From a virus: a DNA stretch of 33,419 nt. Below are positions 3,147 through 32,229 of the stretch, piece by piece. The notes under the pieces were generated by a model, which was not told the origin of the DNA, ran no database searches, and saw nothing but the letters and a program-made list of their open reading frames with translations. Position 1 is the first letter of the stretch. Each line of letters begins with the position of its first letter. The DNA lies in the IMG/VR virus record IMGVR_UViG_3300030329_001549, positions 5,595 through 39,013 of that record; one strand, 5' to 3'. Both the position numbers and the translations under genes were made by a program.

Positions 3147-6100
3147 CTACCCTCCTTTACCAAATCCGACAGCCTGATAGGTGAAATTTCTATCAATCGA
3201 AGCATTTGAGGAGTTTTTAAAGTGAACAGTAAATCCTGTACCACTTACACCAGAAACAACAAAGTAATCTCCAGATGCCATATTCTGAGCATTAATTCCA
3301 ATAGAAGGTAAATTAGAATTTGCTCCCAATAAGGAAGAAGTACCAACAAAGAACGGATTAGTGAAGGTAATAGCCTTTGCACCTGCTCCGCTTGCTGTAA
3401 CATTACCTTGTTCTGTCCTTCGCTGTAAAGATGCTGTATAGCCTAATTCCGATACTCTGATATCTTGTGCCGTATCATTACTTGTTAACTTAGCTCTAAA
3501 TTGAAAACCTCTACCTTTATAAGTACCATTTGCAAAGGTTTGGAACGCTGTATATGTAGGAGATCCAGATGGATCATCTTGTGTAACCCTGACTAACATT
3601 TCAGCGTTTACATCTGTTGCTGTAGCTCCATCAAAGTCTGTCCAATTATCAATATTTGCTGTCCTACTGTCTATTAAATCACTAGGATAAAAAGCTTCTG
3701 TTAAGAAGTGACGTTTAAGATCAAGACTAAACACACCACCTAAATCTAAAGTATCCCCACCAGCAGTTCCACCAAAATCATAAGTACCAGAACTTGCAAT
3801 ACCACCAAAATCATCTAAAGATCCAACTGCATCAAAATCACTAATAGTATCAAAAAGTCCAGTTCCAGCTAAATTTAAGCTATTTGTTGTCGCATCAAAT
3901 TCAACACTAACTTTTGTTCCTTGAAACTTGGGACTATCATTATCTTCTCTCCTAGTCTGTGTTAATAAAGGAGCTTGATTATCAGGTAAATCAATAATGA
4001 CACTTGTTTCTCCAGCACTAAACCTACCTCCGTCATCCCTAAATTTTAGAATATATTCCCCTTCTAGATAAGGAACTTCTGCTGTTGTTGTATTACCAGC
4101 TAATGCTTGAATTAAATCAACAGAGTTACTAAATGTTCCTGTTCCATCGGTTTTTGTGGAGTGTCTTACATAAACACGACCACCATGAATAACATCAACA
4201 TCAGTAGATAAATCCCAACGTAATCTCACTAATTTTTCACTGATAGGTTCTGCTGTTAATCCAGTAACATTTGCAGGTAAAGCTGTCTTACCAACAGCAT
4301 TAAATGTTAAATCAGCAGAAGTCGCACTTGTTTGCAATGCTGCGTTATAACTAAATACCTGAAATTCATACGTTCCAATATCACTATCAAATATTTCAAA
4401 ATCAGGACTAGAAGTTGTTTGAGATATAAAGTTTCCATTATTAAATCTATAGTTAAATTGATACTGCGTAACACCGACAATAGGTTGCCAACTAACTATT
4501 ATCTTAGATACAGCTTGATTATTTATTTCAACAATCTTTTCAACTGCTTGTAATGCAGCAGGGGGATTCTTCGGAAGATTTAATATAGATACAGTTCTTG
4601 TCGGTAAACTTGCACCATCTTCAATGAAAGCATACTTAGCATTTACATAAGATAGAGCAGTAATCGCATAATTTATACCATCAGATTCTTCTACTGTTAT
4701 TACTCTAAATTTCTGAGCTTCAACTGTATCATTCTGTAAAAGCCAACCTGCATTTACATTAGGTGCTTGAGAAAAAGCACTATCAACTGTAATGACTGCA
4801 CCAGCAATGGATTGAACACCTTTAGTTTCCATCGTTCCATCAGGTAAAATAACAGATAAAGTTGGGTTATTTGTTGTAGCTAAATCAGTTGCAGCAGAAT
4901 CATCTACAGTTATTTCAGTCGTTGTTGCAGCACTTATTCTTCCTCCTCTCCTAACACCAGAACGAACAGGATCAGCTATTTCAATAACAGCACCAGGTCT
5001 AACAACAACACCAGAATCTATAGAAGTTGCAAATGCAACAATTTCACTTTCATTCTGTTCAGCAAATAAGATAGCTTTTGCTAACCTTCTAGCCTGACCT
5101 CTACTTGTACATCCGAATCCTTTTACCTGTTTAATAATCACACCAAACTTGGCTATAGCAGCACTATCTTCATAAACCTCATAATCTATTTCCCTACTAT
5201 CCATATTGAAGTAAGAAACAGAAATAACAGTATTTCTTGTTTTTAATCCACTTCCTGAGTAACTAAATCCTTCTGAAGTTACGTTAGATAAATTAAATAA
5301 ATAGCTTGCATCTTTAGGACTATCTTGTGCAAGTTGAATACTACCAGCAGCCCATATTGGCATACATCTCATAACACCTGCTAATTCATTTATTAGATCA
5401 AACGCTTCACTAGATGATTGAATATTTACATTACATGAAAATCTAGCTTCTTGTCCTCCAAAACCATCTGATACCAACGTATTAGCAAATTTACTTGCTG
5501 TTACAAACGAAAACAAATCAAGAGAGCTATCAGTTATATGATTACCAAATCCATATCTAGTATCTGTAAGAAGATCAAGTAATATCATCGCAGGACATGA
5601 ACACCATTGAGCAGCACCCATAACACCATTGAAAATATAACCAGTAGGATAAACAATACGACCAGTAGTACTATCTACAGTCGGAGTACCAGATCCACTA
5701 GCACCTGCTCCTGGAATCCTTACTTTTATGCCTCTAATACGATATTTTCTAGTAGGAATTGATTGGAACTGCATAGAATCCAACCTGAGAGAAGCATAGG
5801 CACTATTGGCATAAGTATTAGAATCATCAATAATTTCTCCGTAGCTTGTCCATTGAAAAGCATCTATAAGACTTGAATCTGAACTATCTGCTGTAACTCT
5901 ACTAACTCTAATGTCAACAGGAAAAGCACCTGTAAGATTTATCCTATAATCTCTCTGATATGCGTCAGCACTTCGACCTGTGATCGTATCTGTAATGACA
6001 TCCGTGTAACCACCAGAATTATATTGAACAGATATTTTTAATTGAACAGAAGAACCTAATAAATCACCTTTATCTGTTGCCTTTTGTAATTGCGGAAAAG

Positions 6101-22106: not shown

Positions 22107-23021
22107 ATGACAGTAATGAATGGCCGAAAAGCCAAAAAAGATTATGTGAAACCTGAAGAATTAATTGTGAATGAATTAATTCAGGCATTAGAATCAGGGA
22201 ACACAAAATTATGGCGTAAAGAATGGACTGTTAAAGGCGGCTTCAGGAATGTCTTATCAGGACACACCTACAAAGGAAGCAACCCTGCTCTTTTATGTTT
22301 ACAGAGTTCTATTAGGAATTGGCATTTACCTCTATTTATCGGTGGAGGTCAGGCTCGTTCCATAAATTGCACTATTAAAAAGGGTTCACGCTCGGCTCGC
22401 ATATTACAACCAATTCAAAGAACTTTTGAAACAAAAGAAAAGGATGAAAACGGGGACGTAAAAATGGGTCAATTTATGAGCTATAAATGCGTTCCAATAT
22501 TTAATGTTGCTGACGTTCGAGGGCTAGATGATGAAGCTAGTCTTAAGTTAGAAAAATTGATTGATGATGCAGTTCTAACTGCAAAGCCCAGAGAATTAGA
22601 TGTCAGAGTTAAAGAAGCTCACGACAGATTATTCCAATGGGAAAAGCAAATTAATACTTTAGTAAAAGGTGGAGATAGAGCTTATTACAGAGAGTCAAGT
22701 GATGAGATAGTCATTCCAAAAAGATATAATTTCAAGAATGATGAGTCTTATCTTGCGACTTTCGCACATGAAGCGGTTCATTCAACAAAACATAAATCAA
22801 GACTTAATAGAAAAGACTTGACCTATGCAAATGAGGAATTAGTTGCTGAATTAGGAGCTTATCTAATTTGTAATAGATTACAGATTTCTAATTTAGATAC
22901 TATGAACCACGCTGCATATTTGGAAGCGTGGTGTCCAATGCTGAAAAGCGACCCAAAAATCCTTTTCAAATCACTAGCTAATGCTAGTAAAGCAGCAGAT
23001 ATGGTAATTGGAGAGCAATAA
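22107..23021 (+). CDS. ardC: ArdC-like antirestriction protein with zinc metallopeptidase domain
   Basis: The 304-residue protein has an N-terminal ArdC ssDNA-binding-like region (DUF1738): ELIVNELIQALESGNTKLWR (about 18-37), SGHTYKGSNPALL (51-63) and GGGQARSINCTIKKGS (79-94). It has a C-terminal MPTase-like domain with HEAVHSTKHKSRLNR (H221, E222, H225) and a downstream acidic helix EELVAELGAYLIC that supplies the third ligand. ArdC proteins of plasmids and phages protect incoming DNA from type I or other restriction, though many relatives are uncharacterised. Its place in the early cluster fits a role soon after entry. All zinc-site residues are present. Confidence 0.85.
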   Translation: MTVMNGRKAKKDYVKPEELIVNELIQALESGNTKLWRKEWTVKGGFRNVLSGHTYKGSNPALLCLQSSIRNWHLPLFIGGGQARSINCTIKKGSRSARILQPIQRTFETKEKDENGDVKMGQFMSYKCVPIFNVADVRGLDDEASLKLEKLIDDAVLTAKPRELDVRVKEAHDRLFQWEKQINTLVKGGDRAYYRESSDEIVIPKRYNFKNDESYLATFAHEAVHSTKHKSRLNRKDLTYANEELVAELGAYLICNRLQISNLDTMNHAAYLEAWCPMLKSDPKILFKSLANASKAADMVIGEQ

Positions 23022-26036: not shown

Positions 26037-26193
26037 CGATAAATGGATTAACTTTCCTAAAAATCCTTATGATGGACAGGTTTTTTATTATCCTCAGACA
26101 AAAGATTGTTTCACATATATCGCTCCTTCAAAAAAAACAGGTAAAGGACAATGGATTATGATTACCCATCAAGATTTCTCTAAACCTTATTAA
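26029..26193 (+). CDS. Small early protein (54 aa)
   Basis: MPNDKWINFPKNPYDGQVFY, YPQTKDCFTYIAPSKKTGKG, QWIMITHQDFSKPY. It begins within the last codons of the previous gene and its TAA overlaps by four bases the stop of the minus-strand nuclease gene, so the two operons converge here with no room for a terminator. The W..FP.NP..GQ.F segment recalls small tail-chaperone-like folds in phages ('FP..P..G..Y..... .. Y.Y'). Function unknown. Confidence 0.65.
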   Translation: MPNDKWINFPKNPYDGQVFYYPQTKDCFTYIAPSKKTGKGQWIMITHQDFSKPY

Positions 26194-27101
26194 GCTGCTA
26201 CTAATTGATCGTTCTTTACCATATCTTGAAACTCTGCTACCTTTTCTTTAAATAACGTACCACAACCTATCAACTCCATAGCTGTTACCCAACGAAGCTG
26301 TAATCCGTTCTTTCTTATTATACATATTAATCCTCTTTTTGCTCTAACTCCAGTTTTTTCATATAATCCCTCGTTATACGCACCTATCTGTAATAAATGA
26401 TCTTGTAAATATTTTTCTGGTTTATCTGTATCTTTTCCATATGTTTTAAAATCTACTATTGTTAATTCTGAATGGCCGTCAGGGTTTTCTGTATCTATTA
26501 AAGCGTCACATTGACCAGCATATCCTGATGAATGGTTTATATTAAATTCACTAAGATGAATTGCTTTTATATCTTCTAAAAAAGGTTGTATATTTCGGGT
26601 GTACTCACTACACGCCCATTGTTCCTCGACTTTATTTTTACCATGAATGGCGTTTTGTAATGCCCATGTTGTGATTGATTGACTAGGTCGTGCCAAACCA
26701 TCTTCATAAATTTTCCAACCATTGCGTTTGTTTGCTGAATTTATAGCTAGTATAGACGCTCTTTTTAATATTTTCTCGCAATATGAATGAACCGCAGTAC
26801 CAATATTACAGGCCATGTCTCTATGTTCTAAATTACCTGGTCGTTTTGCCCAATTCATTAACGCTGCTTTTTGTTCCGCAGGAGCAGTATGTTTAAGTAT
26901 TGATGTTACTGAATGGTATTCTCTTTCTTCTTCATCACGATAAACTCGGTGCTTTCCTGAGTCATCACGCACCAAAGATGAATGGCGTAATCCAGCTAAT
27001 AAGTTTTGCCTATCCGTATCTATAGGTAAGGCAAGAGTCATCTGTTTATAAGGATTTCTTCTAACTGTATCCGTTTTCCTTCTGAATTGCAAGATTGTCA
27101 T
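26190..27101 (-). CDS. PD-(D/E)XK exonuclease, RecB/Cas4-like
   Basis: The 303-residue protein has the whole motif set of RecB-family nucleases: GTAVHSYCE (H105), a G-x-D segment SSGYAGQCDALID (D199), TIVDFKT (D217, K219) and the QxxxY motif LLQIGAYNEGL (Q238, Y242). An N-terminal SVTSILKHTAP and KAALMNWAKRPGN match the start seen in phage members ('SVT.IL......K..L..WA'). The Cys cluster of true Cas4 is not present. It probably resects DNA ends in phage recombination or replication, together with the SSB. It is the last gene of the minus-strand early group. Confidence 0.87.
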   Translation of the reverse strand: MTILQFRRKTDTVRRNPYKQMTLALPIDTDRQNLLAGLRHSSLVRDDSGKHRVYRDEEEREYHSVTSILKHTAPAEQKAALMNWAKRPGNLEHRDMACNIGTAVHSYCEKILKRASILAINSANKRNGWKIYEDGLARPSQSITTWALQNAIHGKNKVEEQWACSEYTRNIQPFLEDIKAIHLSEFNINHSSGYAGQCDALIDTENPDGHSELTIVDFKTYGKDTDKPEKYLQDHLLQIGAYNEGLYEKTGVRAKRGLICIIRKNGLQLRWVTAMELIGCGTLFKEKVAEFQDMVKNDQLVAA

Positions 27102-28694: not shown

Positions 28695-29297
28695 TTATCC
28701 CCCAAATGGGTCTTCATAAGTAAGAAGTTTTTTCAGGTCGAAACCTTTTGACTTAACTTTCTCCCATGCTGCTTCCAACTCTGGTTGATCGTCCTCATCT
28801 TGTGGCTCTATTTGAACATCGTAGTTCCAACGACCACCTTCTCTATCTAATGAAAGAGATAAATCCCATGCCATTAGATTTTTATACTTTCTGTTTAAGG
28901 ATAGCTTTCTAATCTTGCTAAGAATTTGATATTGGTCTGCCTCTAAGATACGAACCATTTTGTTCTTGTAATCATAAATAGGCCAAACATATGTTTCTTT
29001 TGCTTCTGCTGGTTCTGTACTTTGGAATTTTGTTCCTCTGGTATAAGAACCACCCATTTCAGTAAGAATTTCTTCTTCAGAAGGTTTCTGGATAAATCTA
29101 AATGATTTACCTTTTTCTCCATGAACAGATTCTCCGTAGATTTTCCAAAAGATTAGGGGATCCTCTTCCAATAATGCGAAAGAAACTGGTTCTTTTGGGT
29201 CTACTTTTGATGGGTTTAAATATGAAGAAACAAGCGGACGATCCCCTTGCTCTTCTGCTTTTTTGACTTTTTCTTCAAAAGTGGCTGAAAATTTCAT
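28695..29297 (-). CDS. ssb: Single-stranded DNA-binding protein
   Basis: The 200-residue protein starts MKFSATFEEKVKKAEEQGDR, has an OB-fold-like beta-rich core (YVWPIYDYKNKMVRILEADQ then YQILSKIRKL) and a WDLSLSLDREGGRWNYDVQI region typical of phage gp32/gp2.5-like SSBs of marine phages. It ends with an acidic tail closing in YEDPFGG. The D-P-F tail is the part that binds partner proteins. It stands divergent from the primase-helicase and is a single-gene unit with a strong terminator, so it can be made in large amounts. Confidence 0.8.
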   Translation of the reverse strand: MKFSATFEEKVKKAEEQGDRPLVSSYLNPSKVDPKEPVSFALLEEDPLIFWKIYGESVHGEKGKSFRFIQKPSEEEILTEMGGSYTRGTKFQSTEPAEAKETYVWPIYDYKNKMVRILEADQYQILSKIRKLSLNRKYKNLMAWDLSLSLDREGGRWNYDVQIEPQDEDDQPELEAAWEKVKSKGFDLKKLLTYEDPFGG

Positions 29298-29470: not shown

Positions 29471-31603
29471 ATGACAATTATTAGTTTCGTCAAGACTCTC
29501 CCAGAGAACCTCGTTTACGCACCTATATATAAAAAAGATGCAGTAATGAAATCAGGCCGAAAGGCTACTGGTAAAAATCCATTAGAAGAATCATGGGAAA
29601 GGGATTTTGATAAGCATGATGTAGAACTTGCTATTGAAAAGAATCCTGACTTACAAGCAGTCGGACTTTATACAGGAATCAGAGGCAAAGGTATCGTAAT
29701 CCTTGATATTGATAAAGACCATTCCATCTTGAAAAGAAAATGGTCTGAAACTCTGGTAGGTGCTCCTAAAATTACTTCTACAAAAAAAGATGCCGCAAAG
29801 TATGTTTTTAGCGTTCCAGAAACTTTATGGGGTGAAGTAAAGGGTCATGGGCTTCGTAAAGAAGAAGGTGGTAATTATGAAATACTTTGGGGTAGAAGGC
29901 AGGGTGTTATCTTCGGTGCTTACCCAGGTGGACATAGTTCAAAAGAGGGATTTTATAAATTAACTGGCGATCTTTCAAAAATTCCTGTTGCTCCTGCTTG
30001 GTTGTTAGCTGAGATGAAAGCTCCTCCAAAACCAGTACAAAATAAAAAAGATTTAGATTTTAGCGATAGGACAGAAGATGAAATAGCTCAAATCATCCAT
30101 GATTGTTTATCAGTTATTTCTCATCAAGGATTAGGTAGCAGAGAACATTGGGTAAGGGTTGGAATGGCAATTCATTCTGCTTTACCTAATGAACTTGGAT
30201 TGTCTCTATGGTCATTCTGGTCTGCTCAAGATCCTGACTTTGCTACTGAATGGGAGGATGCAGGAGATTATGACACTCCATGCACAACTGCTTGGTATTC
30301 ATTCAAAAGTGGTGGTATCGGATTAGGTACTCTTATCTGGTTAGCTGATCGTGAAGACCCTGAGAGACATAGATTCTCTGCTGAAAATAAAAAGATCGTT
30401 AAAGAAGCTGAAGAAAAGAAAATTCAAGAGGTTAGAACATCAACTCTTGATTTTGGTGATGTAATAAAACGTGCCAAAACGATTCTTGAATTGGATAACC
30501 CTGCTGAAATGAATTACAAGTTAAATACTTTGGCATTGAAAGCAGGATATAGAGATCAGTCATCTTTAGAAAAACTTATTGTCGATCAAATTCAATATGA
30601 AAGCCAAAAAGGTATTTTAGATATAGCAGATCTTTTTGCTTTAGACATTCAGAGGGAATACTTGATACCTGACATTCTTCCTACCCCTTCAGTTGTTCTT
30701 ATTTACGGTGCAGGTGGAGATGGTAAATCCATGAGTGCTTGGACTATGGCAAAACATATCGCTACTGGAGAACCTTTTCTAGTTAGAGGTAGCAAAGTTC
30801 CCGTGGAACAAGGTAATGTTTTGCTATTGAATGGAGATCAACCACTATCACAACTAAAAGAACAGTTAGAAGAAGTAAATTTCCCTGTAGATAGCAACGT
30901 GAAAATTCAAACTGATTGGCAATTACAGAGATATGCACAATTTATTAAATTGATGCAGACTTACGCACCAAAATTAGTCGTTATAGATTCCCTTATTGGT
31001 TGTAGTGGTGGTAGGGCCTTTGATGAAAACAAATCAGACTTTGCTCAACCTTTATATTGGCTTACCAGAAATAATGGTGTTCTTTTCCCTAGAACAACAA
31101 TTCTTATAATCCATCATGCTAATAAGAATGGCGGATTTAGAGGAACTTCAGCTATTAGAGATGCTGTTGATGAAACTTGGAAGTTATCTAAACCAACTCA
31201 AGAACAAATTAGTCAAGTAGGTCGCAATAGCAGATTCATTACTATCGAAAAATCTAGGTCTGGAAGAATGGGTACTCAAATGATAATGAAAATGAAAGAT
31301 GACCTTACCTTCGCTATTGCTGATTACACCCCTGAAGTTTCCTCAGATAGTGAATCTCCTACAACAGTTCAAGATAAAGTTCTTCAAAAGTTAAGAAAAA
31401 TACATCCCGAAACTTATACCATAAATCAAATGATTCACGATCCAATGGTTGATGGTAAAAATGCTGCCATAAGAAAATCGTTCCAAAGATTAATTAAAAA
31501 AGGGCTTATTGAAGTAATCGAAGATGAGGATTCTAATAAGTCTTATAAAGCAGTCCTCGCACGCGGGGCGTTTGCATATCCTGTCCCATTAGAAGAATCT
31601 TAG
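29471..31603 (+). CDS. Primase-polymerase / RepA-like helicase
   Basis: The 710-residue protein joins three parts. Residues 1-180 form a bifunctional primase/polymerase (Prim-Pol, PF09250-like) domain with VILDIDKD (D79, D81), KGHGLRKEEGGNYEILWG and YPGGHSSKEG. Residues 200-295 form a PriCT-2-like region (HWVRVGMAIHSALPNELGL, FWSAQDPDFATEW). Residues 400-610 form a RecA/RepA-type hexameric helicase with Walker A GAGGDGKS (413-420), Walker B KLVVIDS (D506) and IIHHANKNGGFRGTSAIRDA (547-566). A C-terminal winged-helix-like part follows. It should prime and unwind at the origin. It stands alone in its operon and is followed by a repeat array. Confidence 0.9.
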   Translation: MTIISFVKTLPENLVYAPIYKKDAVMKSGRKATGKNPLEESWERDFDKHDVELAIEKNPDLQAVGLYTGIRGKGIVILDIDKDHSILKRKWSETLVGAPKITSTKKDAAKYVFSVPETLWGEVKGHGLRKEEGGNYEILWGRRQGVIFGAYPGGHSSKEGFYKLTGDLSKIPVAPAWLLAEMKAPPKPVQNKKDLDFSDRTEDEIAQIIHDCLSVISHQGLGSREHWVRVGMAIHSALPNELGLSLWSFWSAQDPDFATEWEDAGDYDTPCTTAWYSFKSGGIGLGTLIWLADREDPERHRFSAENKKIVKEAEEKKIQEVRTSTLDFGDVIKRAKTILELDNPAEMNYKLNTLALKAGYRDQSSLEKLIVDQIQYESQKGILDIADLFALDIQREYLIPDILPTPSVVLIYGAGGDGKSMSAWTMAKHIATGEPFLVRGSKVPVEQGNVLLLNGDQPLSQLKEQLEEVNFPVDSNVKIQTDWQLQRYAQFIKLMQTYAPKLVVIDSLIGCSGGRAFDENKSDFAQPLYWLTRNNGVLFPRTTILIIHHANKNGGFRGTSAIRDAVDETWKLSKPTQEQISQVGRNSRFITIEKSRSGRMGTQMIMKMKDDLTFAIADYTPEVSSDSESPTTVQDKVLQKLRKIHPETYTINQMIHDPMVDGKNAAIRKSFQRLIKKGLIEVIEDEDSNKSYKAVLARGAFAYPVPLEES

Positions 31604-31750
31604 TCGTACCAATACATTTCAATGGGACAACACTATGAGACAAGATAGATTGTCCCAATGTTTTTGGAACGTGAGACAATTCTACTTGTCCCATACCCTT
31701 GTCCCACACCAAATTAAAGTACTGGAGCGTGTTTTTAGAGAATGGGACAA
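31582..31750. repeat. TGGGACAA/TTGTCCCA repeat array, candidate replication origin
   Basis: Copies: TGGGACAA at 31623 and 31743; TGAGACAA at 31636 and 31672; TTGTCCCA at 31650, 31686 and 31699; and a partial TGTCCCA at 31582 inside the helicase gene. Six copies between 31623 and 31706 are arranged as an exact dyad about 31664.5: each copy's mirror position holds an inverse copy. Steps are 13, 14, 22, 14 and 13 bases. Iterons next to the initiator gene are typical for theta-type origins. An operator for a repressor is the alternative. Confidence 0.65.
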
Positions 31751-31805
31751 TTTCAGCCACTCTCCCCAGGGATTTAATTAAATAACATTATTAGAATCTA
31801 AATCT

Positions 31806-31932: not shown

Positions 31933-32229
31933 ATGGCCGAAGTTGGTAAAAATCCCCGTGGTAACAAGAAATATTACCATGTTTTAATAGATATAAATAG
32001 AGGAGAACTTTTTGATAAATACATTAGAGAACAATTAAAAGTTAAACCTACTTCTTGGATTCGAGATGTTGTCTATAAATTTTTACAAGACAATATTGAC
32101 GAAAAAGAGTACAATGAAGCTCTTAAAAAAGATAAGGAAAATTGGAATCAAGTTATTCAAAATCGTTTACAAGGCAGGGCTTTATCCAGAATTATAAACT
32201 CCATCAAGAACAAAAAGAATCAAGAATAG
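31933..32229 (+). CDS. Small basic protein after the origin (98 aa)
   Basis: MAEVGKNPRGNKKYYHVLID then INRGELFDKYIREQLKVKPT, SWIRDVVYKFL. The order beta-strand, helix, SWIRDVV helix resembles a ribbon-helix-helix fold ('...F..Y......KP.SWIR..V..FL'), so DNA binding is plausible. Its Lys-rich end holds a slippery-looking C AAA AAG (32211-32217). It may bind the repeats 200 bases upstream, but that is a guess. Confidence 0.7.
   Translation: MAEVGKNPRGNKKYYHVLIDINRGELFDKYIREQLKVKPTSWIRDVVYKFLQDNIDEKEYNEALKKDKENWNQVIQNRLQGRALSRIINSIKNKKNQE

Follow-up and report, generated by a model that had tools for sequence, protein, structure and literature searches.

A mirror-symmetric array of short repeats behind a phage primase-helicase gene is a probable replication origin

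Around the end of the primase-helicase gene (31603) of a marine phage, eight copies of a short site, TGRGACA(A/G), form two inverted half-arrays on either side of a core. The phage is held in an IMG/VR virus record of 39,013 bp; the window analysed here is a stretch of 33,419 bp of that record. In relatives the array keeps its place where the helicase gene ends, its geometry is conserved while the sequence of the site drifts in concert, and it is constrained at the level of DNA. We think it likely that the array is a replication origin, with the primase-helicase binding the half-arrays by a C-terminal winged helix and two oligomers loading in opposite orientations. The features concerned are as follows.

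26190-27101: RecB/Cas4-like exonuclease, present in 38 of 55 relatives
28695-29297, minus strand: conserved 200-aa neighbour, present in 48 of 55 relatives
29471-31603, plus strand: primase-helicase, 710 aa, AAA_25 and PriCT_2 (Pfam), with PHROG primase/helicase matches
31581-31588, minus strand: outer left site a, TGGGACAG, one mismatch, at the same place in relatives
31623-31630, plus strand: site b, TGGGACAA, kept in relatives
31636-31643, plus strand: site c, TGAGACAA, kept in relatives
31650-31657, minus strand: site d, TGGGACAA, kept in relatives
31658-31671, no strand: core separating the half-arrays, its length and sequence varying among relatives
31672-31679, plus strand: site d′, TGAGACAA, kept in relatives
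31686-31693, minus strand: site c′, TGGGACAA, kept in relatives
31699-31706, minus strand: site b′, TGGGACAA, kept in relatives
31743-31750, plus strand: outer right site a′, TGGGACAA, an exact copy, kept in relatives
31754-31769, plus strand: block AGCCACTCTCCCCAGG, just past the last site, nearly invariant in the window clade
31933-32229, plus strand: 98-aa ribbon-helix-helix-like protein, encoded close to the array in 43 of 55 relatives

The first-pass annotation had described six TGRGACAA octamers in mirror positions between 31623 and 31706, with steps of 13-14-22-14-13, and these steps are exact. The two further copies that it placed on the flanks are likewise present, one exact at 31743 (plus strand) and one with a single mismatch at 31581 (minus strand), and their positions are mirror images with a deviation of at most 2 bp; the match between flanking bases, TATGAGACAAG at 31634-31644 and CTTGTCCCATA at 31685-31695, is also correct. 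Seven of the eight TGRGACAA matches of the whole window fall inside the array, and no second cluster of sites occurs anywhere in the window. Five exact copies of TGGGACAA lie within 130 bp, a count to be set against a maximum of three for the best 8-mer in 20 dinucleotide shuffles; TGRGACAA itself reached at most three per 170 bp in 200 shuffles. Random placement of eight sites gave full mirror pairing in ∼0.1% of trials. Only one site is inside the helicase frame, so that the array in the window is mostly intergenic. GC skew tracks gene orientation and is uninformative on the position of an origin.

Could the array be missing from close relatives with the same helicase, an outcome that the first-pass annotation had named as fatal to its reading? 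A scan with the helicase returned 50 viral loci, 43 of which extend past the end of the helicase, and every one of these 43 carries the array. In an alignment of 18 close relatives most bases of the sites are invariant and the spacers are variable; AGCCACTCTCCCCAGG is near-invariant, and sequence resembling TATCCCC(C/G)CGCG occurs at about its position in divergent relatives. This block could be a primer start or an unwinding element. Exact matches to the 16-mer elsewhere in viral contigs are found only in unrelated sequence. The named phages have no DNA similarity to the window, and bacterial genome contigs yielded four relatives only, all in metagenome-assembled genomes with varied assigned taxa, which are possibly stray viral contigs.

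Some individual records deserve mention. One relative (L025) carries a ninth site beside the core, ∼61 bases past the end of helicase homology, which its close relative L027 does not have. In L035 (4001-6063) the array is intact, but the helicase frame is broken after ∼394 residues, by either an error in the sequencing or a genuine frameshift. In L052 a run of undetermined bases near 5590 interrupts the ORF at the window start, and the record is uncertain there. The 200-aa protein, possibly (this is a guess) a single-strand-binding protein, and the RecB/Cas4-like exonuclease travel as a module with helicase and array. Further off in the window (22107-23021) is an ArdC-like anti-restriction protein with a zincin-like metallopeptidase domain.

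With seven aligned helicases as the query, 80 loci were obtained, with helicase identity down to 41%. The array is found in most relatives down to 41–50% identity, and in divergent relatives (41–79%) the layout is mostly kept: two inverted four-site half-arrays around a variable core. The common arrangement, measured from 7-mer start to 7-mer start, is < 43-44 > 13 > 15-16 < core > 15-16 < 13 < 43-44 >; L137–L145 keep six sites, spaced 44-26-core-26-44. Core length varies strongly; the flanking steps hardly differ. The site itself changes from one group to the next: L032 has TGGGACAC and L117–L126 have both TAGGACA and TGGGACA, while the site is GGGGACA in L132 and L134, CTGGACA in L128, L149 and L264, TGCGACA in L137–L142 and TGYGACA in L143–L145. 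This drift is concerted, within-array 8-mer identity being 0.87, a value reached in none of 2000 label shuffles, and 31 of 35 representative arrays pass a mirror test at 0.05 (L130, L135, L265 and L266 fail), although both tests are descriptive, because the sites were defined locus by locus once the sequences had been inspected and the arrays are related rather than independent.

The relation of the array to the reading frame changes among relatives. The helicase stop codon lies anywhere from 3 to 342 bases beyond the end of homology, and in about eleven loci (L127, L130, L131, L134, L135, L137, L140, L143, L145, L266 and L267) the array is within the helicase frame, where it encodes a linker from the winged helix to a C-terminal tail such as YPRARE...W; L265 has a weaker in-frame array. 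The layout is the same whether the array is coding or non-coding, which argues that selection acts on the DNA and not on the protein. A similar tail (YPRARE...W or close to it) is seen in L127, L130, L131, L134, L135, L265, L266 and L267, and has been lost in the window clade.

The first-pass annotation had proposed the neighbouring Prim-Pol/RepA-like gene as the natural initiator, and this is still the best reading given the domains of the protein and a weak match of the helicase family profile to RSF1010 RepA in the PDB. Pfam recognised AAA_25 and PriCT_2 only, with neither D5_N/Primase_Cterm nor DUF927. The C-terminus (approximately residues 632–698) is predicted to form a winged helix (model H-H-H-E-E) with moderate confidence (pLDDT 69); a Foldseek search with this model returned MecI, MarR and Fur-like regulators among its matches, none of them below E 0.001.

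From these elements a mechanism can be proposed. Each half-array (a-b-c-d, and inverted d′-c′-b′-a′) would bind primase-helicase subunits via the C-terminal winged-helix domain; since the half-arrays face each other, two oligomers, probably hexamers, would come to lie in opposite polarity around the core. They would then open the DNA, depart in opposite directions and prime synthesis themselves. We infer origin activity from the retention of the array in relatives, the mirror test, the concerted drift, the selection on DNA and the single cluster in the window, together with the predicted winged helix and the similar arrays behind related primase-helicases in other phages (see below). The helicase is favoured as the binder because arrays accompany helicase genes that have no homologue of the 98-aa protein in the local stretch, and because the helicases of SaPI and SCCmec act likewise (PMC7581432). 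Several observations count against the model: beyond the core, site drift fails to follow the helicase C-terminus (partial correlation 0.28, p 0.08); the core of the array is not AT-rich (0.54 versus 0.59 for the loci), unlike the usual unwinding element; the winged-helix prediction is of the moderate quality noted above; and a conserved, DNA-binding-like protein of 98 aa is encoded close by.

This last protein provides an alternative, which we regard as unlikely: it, and not the helicase, would bind the array, which would then be an operator, a partition or copy-control site, or else the protein would be an initiator in its own right and bring in the helicase. Its sequence has a ribbon-helix-helix-like pattern, and proteins of this class bind short direct and inverted repeats; moreover, the distances between the 98-aa proteins and those between the helicase C-termini follow the motif almost equally well, so that neither is singled out. 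However, its gene is in some relatives up to ∼3 kb from the array, whereas the helicase gene is adjacent in every case, the local stretches of sequence around similar arrays in other phages yielded no homologue, and its structural model has no significant fold match in the PDB. An improbable reading is that the array acts as a cruciform, or as a single-strand hairpin read by the primase in the manner of a pRN1-like stem-loop or a single-strand initiation site. Folding energies do beat those of shuffles (DNA z −2.95; RNA z −5.3 to −6.9), and in pRN1 a stem-loop that follows the PrimPol-helicase gene is essential (PMC4234260). The 84-bp palindrome reported in the first-pass annotation is indeed the best in the window, with 27 of 42 positions paired, but shuffles equal 27, and it is thus the sites, not the whole sequence, that carry the symmetry. 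The cruciform suggested along with it is not the conserved feature: mirrored sites are 90% complementary and spacers only 39%, a weakness of pairing that rules out a cruciform as the primary conserved element and points to an array of sites rather than a conserved hairpin. Predicted pairings, moreover, shift from relative to relative, whereas the site sequence itself is conserved.

Very improbable, in our estimation, is a site of recombination, integration or packaging. In general form, mirror-placed sites beside the conserved AGCCACTCTCCCCAGG do resemble arm and core layouts, but the array stays behind the helicase gene in relatives, the terminase gene is ∼12 kb away and the ORFs examined, a part of the full set, included no recognisable integrase. 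As an attachment core AGCCACTCTCCCCAGG was rejected, its other exact matches in viral contigs being unrelated chance occurrences. It is harder still to credit a transcription terminator or an RNA regulatory element: most of the array is intergenic in the window, and its inverted sites can fold as RNA, yet a terminator scan found none on the plus strand, Rfam gave no match, and in the relatives with in-frame arrays it is part of the helicase ORF. A promoter scan returned chance-level results.

Similar arrays are present beyond the window's family. A search of viral sequences for one TGGGACAA...TTGTCCCA pair gave at least 120 stretches; among the matches listed, 35 of 110 new loci, some of them belonging to the window's own family, have at least four TGGGACA per 200 bp, compared with none of 120 loci having at least four of its own motif for a single control, the reversed motif. 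Among these listed matches, 23 of the 35 arrays coincide with the 3′ end of a long ORF (at least 400 aa), where random placement would give 5.3, as against four of 75 loci with two or three sites (8.2 expected); some of the 12 arrays placed otherwise are cut by contig ends.

Outside the family, primase-helicases belonging to several families have TGGGACA arrays on or close to their 3′ ends in 13 loci (between L157 and L245). The array-adjacent genes combine AAA_25, Prim-Pol and PriCT_1 in L157, L189, L212, L226 and L241, AAA_25 and Toprim_3 in L245, and have AAA_25 in L235; they are VapE-like, with or without Toprim_3, in L164, L167, L180, L211 and L222, and DUF3987 in L204. In L205, which has four sites only, the gene nearest the array is an integrase. 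The two-fold layout is not evident by eye in arrays outside the family.

Sixteen named-phage records around related helicases were also inspected, and in about nine (L388, L389, L390, L391, L392, L395, L397, L400 and L402) 7-bp repeats stand behind the gene, mostly with a motif of their own. No obvious repeats were seen behind the helicase in Persinger, FoX3, Arya, RawrgerThat, S-CBS4, MW202485 and MW202711. In Rhizobium phage 16-3 we counted CGTGACA 15 times behind the primase-helicase. The 7-bp repeats are not annotated as a feature or an origin in the named-phage records inspected. Their occurrence in about nine of 16 suggests that repeats behind the primase-helicase are general, and that the window family is a special case.

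It is conceivable, and we put it forward tentatively as something less than an even prospect, that TGGGACA is an origin code shared across helicases of AAA_25/Prim-Pol, AAA_25/Toprim, VapE and DUF3987 type, by way of either a common partner or a C-terminal DNA-binding module that can be exchanged, and that the marine family fixed a near-invariant two-fold layout that would load two helicases back to back. Should the array prove to be an origin, repeats behind primase-helicase genes may allow the origins of many uncultured phages to be read from sequence. Because the geometry is fixed while the site drifts, the family would furthermore supply initiators and sites in naturally matched pairs for studies of helicase self-loading. 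That one heptamer recurs beside different helicase families raises a question open to test, whether these families exchange DNA-binding modules or origins.

The first-pass annotation knew of no origin with this repeat, and we likewise found no paper describing one in open-access text. Among known systems, the repeats bound by SaPI Rep and Cch2 follow immediately on the genes for these proteins, and binding is by a C-terminal domain (PMC7581432). As in SaPI Rep and SCCmec Cch2, the repeats here are directly 3′ of the initiator helicase gene, and in those systems too the C-terminal domain is the proposed DNA binder and two hexamers have been proposed (PMC7581432). Unlike them, the present helicase is AAA_25/RepA-like rather than of D5_N or DUF927 type, and its eight sites of 7–8 bp are in strict two-fold arrangement with no AT-rich core. 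In pRN1 the PrimPol-helicase gene, orf904, is also followed by a candidate origin, and a winged-helix DNA-binding domain has been proposed, but pRN1 conserves structure and not sequence (PMC4234260), whereas here the sites are conserved and the spacers pair weakly. The lambda origin resembles the in-frame arrays of about eleven relatives in that repeats bound by the initiator lie within the initiator gene, here O, but consists of four 19-bp iterons and uses a separate host helicase (PMC3985674). The window array, in contrast to that of lambda, is mostly outside the gene, with one site in frame.

Iteron plasmid origins have tandem direct repeats of ∼17–22 bp, unlike the mirrored sites of 7–8 bp described here. 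In the origins of SV40 and papillomavirus, short sites in two-fold placement assemble a double hexamer; the resemblance is of layout only, as the helicase is unrelated and their DNA-binding domain is N-terminal. The initiators of these viruses are mentioned in PMC7581432. Rhizobium phage 16-3, Salicola CGphi29, Alteromonas PB15 and others share with the window multiple 7-bp repeats just 3′ of an AAA_25 or VapE primase-helicase, and differ in that the motifs are mostly other ones. Short repeats directly behind a primase-helicase gene are thus known from SaPI and SCCmec (PMC7581432); what is unusual in the present array is its strict two-fold geometry.
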